Position numbers and translations under genes: made by a program
Notes under the pieces: model-generated
Told to the model about the DNA's origin: nothing
The model's database searches: none
What the model saw: only the letters and a program-made list of their open reading frames with translations
Origin: Candidatus Arcticimaribacter sp.
GTDB taxonomy: Bacteria > Bacteroidota > Bacteroidia > Flavobacteriales > Flavobacteriaceae
Reading direction: 5' to 3'
Assembly: GCA_003023645.1 (NCBI GenBank)
Contig: PXYQ01000002.1
Location: 1-45,216, forward strand
Length of the DNA: 45,216 bases
In this document: one piece after another, positions 8,550 through 14,539 of the stretch
How the letters are laid out: each line of letters begins with the position of its first letter
How positions within the stretch are numbered: position 1 is the first letter of the stretch

Positions 8550-8623
8550 GGTCCTATAGCTCAGTTGGTTAGAGTAGCTGACTCATAATCAGTTGGTCCC
8601 TGGTTCGAGCCCAGGTGGGACCA
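8550..8623 (+). tRNA. tRNA with anticodon CAU (tRNA-Met or lysidine-modified tRNA-Ile2)
   Basis: A 74-base cloverleaf. Acceptor GGTCCTA pairs with TGGGACC (one G-T pair), T8 A9 are present, the D stem is GCTC/GAGT, the anticodon stem GCTGA/TCAGT holds loop CTCATAA with anticodon CAT, and the T stem is CCTGG/CCAGG with loop TTCGAGC. The discriminator is A; CCA is not encoded. A CAT anticodon means elongator Met or, after lysidine modification by TilS, Ile decoding AUA. The C4-G69 and C5-G68 pairs and the ACTCATAATC context resemble tRNA-Ile2 rather than elongator tRNA-Met of E. coli, so Ile2 is somewhat favoured. It is not the initiator because the first pair is a standard G-C. Confidence 0.9.
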
Positions 8624-8648
8624 CAAAAGAAGAGATAACTCTTTTTGG

Positions 8649-8680
8649 AAGCCTTTACATTTTGTAGAGGCTTTTTTGTT
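8649..8680 (+). terminator. Intrinsic terminator after the tRNA
   Basis: AAGCCTTTAC and GTAGAGGCTT form a ten-pair stem (one G-T) around a short T-rich loop, followed by TTTTTTGTTTT. It lies 25 bases past the tRNA. Confidence 0.8.
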
Positions 8681-8753
8681 TTCTGGTGAGAAGTTTATCC
8701 GCAGTATGCGGGAGCCCAGGTGGGACCACAAAAAAAGAGACAACTCTTTTTGG

Positions 8754-8785
8754 AAGCCTTTACATTTTGTAGAGGCTTTTTTGTT
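8754..8785 (+). terminator. Second copy of the tRNA terminator
   Basis: Same stem-loop and T-tract as the terminator 105 bases upstream, carried in the second tandem repeat. Confidence 0.75.
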
Positions 8786-9046
8786 TTTGGGCGAGAAGTT
8801 TATCCGCTATAGGTGGGAGCTCTGGTGGGACCAAAATTAAAATCAAGCCTTCACGTAAAGCGGGAGCTTTTTTTATTTCCAACACTCACTTAATACTCAC
8901 TTCAGCACTCTATTTCATTTGTCGATTAACCCCAGTAAAACCCTTTAAATCATCAAAAACGTTAGAGAATGAAAACAAGCTTTGAAAACGGTTTTGTACA
9001 TTGTATTGATAAATTATATTAAACTTATAAAAGCAGAAAAGCACTA

Positions 9047-13801: not shown

Positions 13802-13816
13802 TTACACAGACTCATT

Positions 13817-13868
13817 GGAAGCCTCTACATTATGTAGAGGCTTTTTTGTTTTGGGGTAAGATGTTTAT
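13817..13868 (+). repeat. Distal copy of the tRNA-proximal terminator repeat
   Basis: A 52-base segment nearly identical to the region from GGAAGCC to TTTAT in the tandem repeats after the tRNA (8647 onward and 8752 onward). It includes the stem-loop, the TTTTTTGTTTT tract and the following G-rich tail with TTTAT. It lacks the tRNA 3' end. Confidence 0.8.
13819..13848 (+). terminator. Terminator within the distal repeat
   Basis: AAGCCTCTACA and TGTAGAGGCTT form an eleven-pair perfect stem with a short loop, followed by six T. Pairing is better than in the two copies beside the tRNA. Confidence 0.8.
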
Positions 13869-14281: not shown

Positions 14282-14539
14282 TTAAGTGCCAATTAATTTC
14301 AGTTTTTCTACCCGTGATAATTTTTTGATTTCGTATTCTCGTTTTGATGCAGTCGATCGATCGGGATGCATTTCAGAATACACTAAGTCAACAGGTCTTC
14401 TATTTCTTGTGTACTTGGCTCCCTTTTTTGAATCGTTGTGTTCAGCGATTCTTCTTTCTCGGTCAGTTGTAATACCCGTGTACAAACTTCCGTCTGAGCA
14501 TGCAACAATATAGACCCACCACTCTTTTTCTTCCTCCAT
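14282..14539 (-). CDS. GIY-YIG domain protein (UPF0213/YhbQ-like)
   Basis: Protein of 85 residues made of a single GIY-YIG nuclease-type domain. The two strands are WVYIVACSDGSLYTG, with the YIV and YTG variants of the GIY...YIG signature; the catalytic-type Arg lies in RERRIAEHN, followed by the KGAKYTRNRRPVDLVYSE strand and the Glu-containing helix ASKREYEIKKL. Stand-alone proteins of this family are very common and their cellular role is not settled. ATG at 14539 is used; the codon before it is TTG. Confidence 0.9.
   Translation of the reverse strand: MEEEKEWWVYIVACSDGSLYTGITTDRERRIAEHNDSKKGAKYTRNRRPVDLVYSEMHPDRSTASKREYEIKKLSRVEKLKLIGT

Follow-up and report, generated by a model that had tools for sequence, protein, structure and literature searches.

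What produced the tandem copies of a tRNA 3′ end that follow a tRNA-CAU gene in a draft Bacteroidota genome? The window analysed here is the whole contig that carries this gene (45,216 nucleotides; contig C80 of genome G000, which has 190 contigs and about 2.1 Mb), and ARAGORN finds one tRNA in it. The last 17 bases of the tRNA, GAGCCCAGGTGGGACCA, occur exactly at 8607-8623 and 8712-8728 and with two mismatches at 8817-8833; none of 100 shuffles gave three or more such matches. Tandem Repeats Finder reports a period of 105 (2.2 copies, score 377), and copy 1 (8607-8711) is identical to copy 2 (8712-8816) at 96 of 105 bases. The tRNA-end repeats at 8712 and, degenerate, at 8817, the 105-base period with 96 shared bases and the full terminators of the first two copies, all described in an earlier note on this sequence, are thus confirmed. 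That note had also counted three copies of the tail with its terminator; there are three tails, but the third is a tail only, with a different terminator behind it. What it did not contain is a conserved motif, GAGAAGTTTAT, which together with a 13-nt hairpin lies between the terminator and each downstream tail (8688-8711 and 8793-8816). The features are as follows.

8550-8624, + strand: tRNA-CAU (called as tRNA-Met), the anchor of the array (ARAGORN, anticodon CAT; Rfam tRNA, 68.2 bits)
8607-8711, + strand: unit 1, beginning with the functional tRNA tail (T-loop onwards), then terminator, spacer, conserved motif and hairpin
8647-8678, + strand: terminator of unit 1, GGAAGCCTTTACATTTTGTAGAGGCTTTTTTG
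8683-8687, + strand: 5′ arm of unit 1, CTGGT, complementary in part to GCCCAG of the tail copy (from the sequence and family-wide arm/tail covariation)
8688-8698, + strand: conserved motif of unit 1
8699-8711, + strand: hairpin of unit 1, CCGCA-GTA-TGCGG
8712-8816, + strand: unit 2, comprising the first displaced tail, a terminator as in unit 1, spacer, motif and hairpin
8752-8783, + strand: terminator of unit 2, its core identical to that of unit 1
8787-8792, + strand: 5′ arm of unit 2, TTGGGC, complementary to the tRNA-tail GCCCAG (from the sequence and a covariance-model match at 8787-8824)
8793-8803, + strand: conserved motif of unit 2
8804-8816, + strand: hairpin of unit 2, CCGCTATAGGTGG, its pairing kept through G-U despite stem changes relative to unit 1
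8817-8834, + strand: oldest displaced tail, decayed
about 8845-8875, + strand: the different terminator after the third tail
13815-13868, + strand: stray terminator, spacer and degenerate motif behind a protein gene

The two units differ at nine sites, four of them in the hairpin, where an A-T pair has become T-G, a G-C pair has become G-T and one loop base has changed, so that pairing is preserved. Since the copies differ at these nine sites and a homologous unit is present in the sister species G002, it is unlikely that the array is a misassembly artefact. The same build appears on another contig of the window genome (C90, locus L051), where a tRNA-Asn gene is followed by a terminator, TTGGGC, GAGAAGTTTAT, a hairpin and a copy of the tRNA-Asn tail. 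The stray copy at 13815-13868 is also found in G002, and five other relatives have no match behind that gene. The terminator after the third tail and the flank up to about 9016 recur at 83-93% identity in G005, G013 (twice) and G014; the repeated segment, about 190 bp at 8824-9016 with a frame ending VFDDLKGFTGVNRQMK inside it, has shorter pieces elsewhere and is probably the end of another mobile element.

We searched 400 genomes of the family with the pattern GGGCGAGAAGTTTATSC, using the reversed pattern as a control. The pattern was found in 42 genomes and the control in none. Scanning contigs with the motif gave at least 118 stretches, and among the matches listed, viral contigs included, a tRNA on the same strand lies within 600 nt at 129 of 171 unique loci, at a median distance of 57 nt. 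The tRNAs concerned, again among the matches listed, serve at least 12 amino acids. By reading, about 22 of the 33 non-viral loci with no called tRNA are at contig ends and have a tRNA tail next to the motif; the remaining 11 lie mostly within coding sequence, several of them in other phyla, and look like chance matches. After the hairpin, 115 of 137 units have the cognate tRNA tail, most commonly at an offset of 30 nt from the first C of the motif, and a second search that did not require GGGC led to 21 places, all behind tRNAs. A covariance model built from the units and run on 396 genomes of the phylum matched in 34 of them. The full-length matches that could be read are at tRNA tails and have compensated arms (GGGT/ACCC, CCGGAC/GTCCGG); the weak partial ones are dispersed palindromes. 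Units are 70-190 bp long, tightly clustered in length and without a gene; spacers and terminators vary between loci, and the truly shared part is only about 30 nt. Ulvibacter antarcticus and Christiangramia are among the carriers, with four units at tRNA-Asn in Christiangramia sabulilitoris (L239). A phage origin of the motif was considered and rejected: its 11 matches on viral contigs, none with an adjacent tRNA, are all consistent with chance. No description of these units was found in the literature searched, and the tRNA-tail units form a widespread and apparently undescribed family in Bacteroidota.

Repeats of a similar build, RtT, behind the tyrosine tRNA of E. coli were described in the 1970s, have stayed an unexplained peculiarity of a single locus and are processed from the tyrT transcript. 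We regard it as rather probable that the array in the window consists of stacked RtT-like tRNA-tail units and began with an insertion at the T-loop. A founding insertion would bring a fresh 3′ tail, a terminator or spacer, GAGAAGTTTAT and the hairpin; the tRNA would be rebuilt, and the old tail with its native flank would be pushed downstream. Growth would then continue beside the tRNA, either through repeated insertions or through unequal exchange involving the direct repeats, and tails once displaced would decay. The insertion was presumably carried out by an enzyme acting in trans, and the structured tRNA-sense strand may be what the inserting agent recognises or may serve an RNA function.

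The founding step can be followed in two genomes of one genus. In G406, the empty allele, tRNA-Trp is followed directly by AAATCTTAAAGAAG and secE, whereas in G232 five 72-bp units stand between tRNA-Trp and the corresponding AAATCTTAAAGAG with secE, an array situated in an operon ahead of secE. The filled allele has the direct tail repeat and the rebuilt tRNA, and its native flank is displaced exactly behind the last tail. The unit spacer and motif are missing from the empty allele; therefore, the array was founded by an insertion in which the tail was regenerated. At 78 loci with a single unit, the sequence after the tRNA is mostly unlike that after the displaced tail, with a median identity of 0.64, against 0.56 for random 45-mers; the two flanks are at least 0.8 alike at 14 of these loci, which fits duplication there. 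Growth of the arrays has a direction. Among 41 arrays, a few of them with duplicate or doubtful tRNA calls, decay is greater in the distal than in the proximal tail in 19, equal in 22 and smaller in none, and across 28 arrays junction identity falls from 0.94 at the first unit to 0.68 at the last. Thus, units enter or multiply next to the tRNA. Either repeated insertion or unequal exchange may account for this later growth.

Comparison of units also points to a conserved fold. The arm that precedes GAGAAG has the sequence of the reverse-complemented tail after the hairpin and varies with the tRNA (GAGAGAC/GTCTCTC for Leu, ACTGGAC/GTCCAGT for Met, TAGGAC/GTCCTA for Gln). At free positions, arm and tail pair at 0.60, compared with 0.46 when tRNAs are permuted, a value that none of 5000 permutations reached. 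Over 45 distinct units, the two proposed stems have 62 double-change cells versus 25 ± 4 after shuffling, and slid versions of the stems all score far lower; the sequences are related, so these shuffle tests overstate independence. Part of the covariation in stem 1, formed by arm and tail, could be inherited from the T-stem of the tRNA. The R-Y pair at alignment columns 5 and 39 and the whole of stem 2 fall outside such inheritance, because the former involves a loop base of the tRNA and the latter is independent of it. Non-canonical pairs on the tRNA-sense strand comprise 52 G-T and 13 A-C, and on this sequence bias the sense strand, as RNA or as DNA, is the likelier folded form. Single-sequence folding does not find the window hairpins unusually stable (z of -0.2 and -0.6), and the case for structure therefore rests on comparison.

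These compensatory changes and the lean towards G-U would also be expected if the units were kept for an RNA function, as structured small RNAs processed out of tRNA read-through transcripts in the manner of RtT, whose product RttR is annotated as a small RNA in E. coli RefSeq. We nevertheless find this explanation doubtful. A folded DNA strand would yield equal covariation, tRNA and hairpin are usually separated by a strong terminator, the distribution is as patchy as the covariance-model matches indicate, and distal copies decay.

The earlier note had pointed to tRNA 3′ ends as attachment sites and to serial events at this one, and here it was right: integrase elements occupy the same tRNA in related genomes, sister species among them, and the flank recurs. 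In G014, of the same genus, a 6-kb segment between the tRNA and an attR-like tail copy encodes a 533-aa phage-type integrase (PF00589), a ParB/N6-methylase protein and a MerT/HMA protein; integrase ORFs lie directly 3′ of the same tRNA in G001, G003 and G012; and in G002 an attR-like tail, accompanied by a broken piece of an integrase, lies upstream of the 105-bp unit. Contig C176 of G002, considered as the tRNA side missing from that locus, starts with a different tRNA and has no bearing on it. Relatives thus differ in copy number and carry inserted elements, not the invariant, element-free repeat that the note had set against its own reading. It does not follow that the units are scars of tyrosine-recombinase elements, whose left end (tail and terminator) stayed while the interior was later lost. 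Each integrase element at this tRNA does place a new terminator behind it, the broken integrase piece in G002 does lie beside a unit, and the tail copies do start in the T-loop, a usual crossover point. However, among the matches listed no long element ends in the motif at any of the 171 loci, and the tightly clustered unit length is unlike the outcome of random deletions. None of the integrase elements at this tRNA carries the unit, and their right ends differ from it: they read GTTATAAATAGTAATGAGTA and then CAGGTGGGACCACCA, and the motif is absent from the attR sequences of G014 and G013. In the units, motif and hairpin take the place of the T-loop in the displaced copy, and the overlap region TTCGAGY is not intact; a T-loop broken in this way is not an ordinary attR. 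No unit contains an integrase gene. We therefore consider descent from such elements unlikely, and the note's suggestion that the 105-bp repeats are leftovers of integrase elements is not supported, since the motif is always in short units. Deletion of a longer ancestor was rejected as well, no long motif-bearing version having been found. The 105-bp units are a separate phenomenon at a target that they share with integrase elements.

A more speculative idea, to which we give little credence, is that motif and hairpin could be a folded single-strand recombination site with logic like that of integron attC sites, in which the tip varies and the tRNA tail completes the stem. A recombinase would then stack gene-less cassettes at the tRNA, the newest one proximal, both in Bacteroidota and in enterobacteria, where the cassettes would be the RtT repeats.

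The alternative named in the earlier note was simple tandem duplication. Such copying of the tRNA 3′ end and terminator, through slippage during replication or through unequal crossing-over and without any mobile element, is very unlikely to explain the array: units within an array are often identical, terminator included (L166, L202, L239), and copy number varies freely, for example in E. coli, but the same motif and hairpin stand at every founding junction across phyla and tRNA types, most single-unit flanks are unlike, and the spacer and motif of the unit are absent from the empty allele in G406. Duplication is refuted for founding events and viable for later array growth.

A build of the RtT type behind so many kinds of tRNA turns an oddity of one locus into a class that can be compared, and because empty and filled sites, polarity and covariation are available, its origin and function can be tested. 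The units account for the fast turnover of tRNA 3′ flanks, and they call for caution in that a tRNA-tail repeat is not always an integrase attachment scar. They may also help to explain contig breaks at tRNA 3′ flanks in metagenome-assembled genomes. Several such contigs end in or just past tRNA-CAU (G006:C29, G007:C147, G015:C288, G016:C87, G022:C22), as would be expected if the 3′ flank there is repetitive or variable. Other arrangements were seen at tRNAs of these genomes. In G011 (L048, 1429-1480), the same tRNA is broken after about 51 nt by foreign sequence, and its 3′ end is missing. Behind tRNA-Asn in the genus (L392 in G013, L390 in G014, L391 in G002) there are several segments ending in GCTGCAACTTTGAATAATAGGGGGAGC and a terminator; in G013, these segments lie 0.6-1.9 kb apart and form a cassette-like row with a common right end of its own.

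Among known systems, tyrosine-recombinase integrative elements (IMEs, tycheposons) resemble the units in that insertion at the 3′ end rebuilds the tRNA and displaces the old tail, and in that serial insertion is tRNA-proximal. The units differ from them in being gene-less, in having no long version among those seen and in their hairpin-broken displaced T-loop. REP/RAYT palindromes are also short hairpins, and the commonest unit hairpin, TGAGCGNAGTCGAA, is found away from tRNAs too; REPs are scattered through intergenic regions of the whole genome, whereas the full-motif matches of the family search lie behind tRNAs where contigs allow this to be judged, and it is the bare hairpin alone that is dispersed. 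REP tags have been described as GTAG or CGTC (PMC3733652), and neither stands at the foot of the hairpin in the unit alignment. Dispersed palindromes, AGTTTATCCTGAGCGNAGTCGAAGG, that resemble the commonest unit hairpin were observed away from tRNAs at L413, L415-L418 and L420.

SegB, a GIY-YIG homing endonuclease at phage tRNA genes, is associated with tandem amplification next to tRNAs (PMC13096335). Similar tRNA-tail units of relatives do contain GIY-YIG ORFs (L134, L178), whereas the motif-type units have no nuclease gene; there is none in the window units, and the only GIY-YIG ORF of the window (14309-14521, minus strand) is 5 kb away. The possibility that GAGAAGTTTAT is the 3′ tail of a GIY-YIG frame (GREVY) was rejected, as no such frame enters the motif loci, except for open frames that span repeats. 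Free-standing GIY-YIG ORFs adjoin tRNA genes, some in identical tandem, at L134 (G028, 1450-2405), L178, L138, L121 and L136. They are flanked by partial tRNA copies, and a palindrome (e.g., CCCGATAGCTATCGGG) interrupts the anticodon loop, variable loop or D-loop; these ORFs beside Bacteroidota tRNAs look like homing-type elements.

The closest likeness is to RtT (RF00391; 178-bp repeats of the tyrT (tyrV) operon). In the tyrT region of E. coli K-12, tyrV is followed by three more tail copies, and in front of each stand, in this order, CGGGGAAGGAT, GAGAAG, several hairpins and ATCCTTCCCCCACCACCA; arm and tail pair over 10 bp, and the unit folds well (z of -2.95). In E. coli, Klebsiella and Salmonella, the RtT units have an arm, GGGAAGGAT, that is complementary to the tail and followed by GAGAAG. 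CP125156.1 (L432), a 5.37-Mb Klebsiella chromosome, is deposited as a plasmid record. Among complete E. coli genomes, 4708 of 5426 carry between 1 and 10 copies, with a median of 3, and the remaining ones have none at the sensitivity used. The Rfam RtT model misses the Bacteroidota units and matches in E. coli only, and we therefore call them RtT-like rather than RtT. RtT units are larger, lack TTTAT, overlap the tpr reading frame and, in the enterobacteria examined, stand behind tRNA-Tyr only, whereas in Bacteroidota the core measures about 30 nt, a terminator is often part of the unit, and units follow at least 12 types of tRNA. On the other hand, both are direct tandem repeats behind a tRNA that vary in copy number between strains; both end in a tail copy that starts in the T-loop and runs to the 3′ end; and both have a tail-complementary arm (GGGGAAGGAT/ATCCTTCCCC in RtT) with GAGAAG directly after it and then hairpins. 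Since the same hexamer occupies the same structural position and the tail boundary is the same, RtT and the Bacteroidota units are of the same kind.
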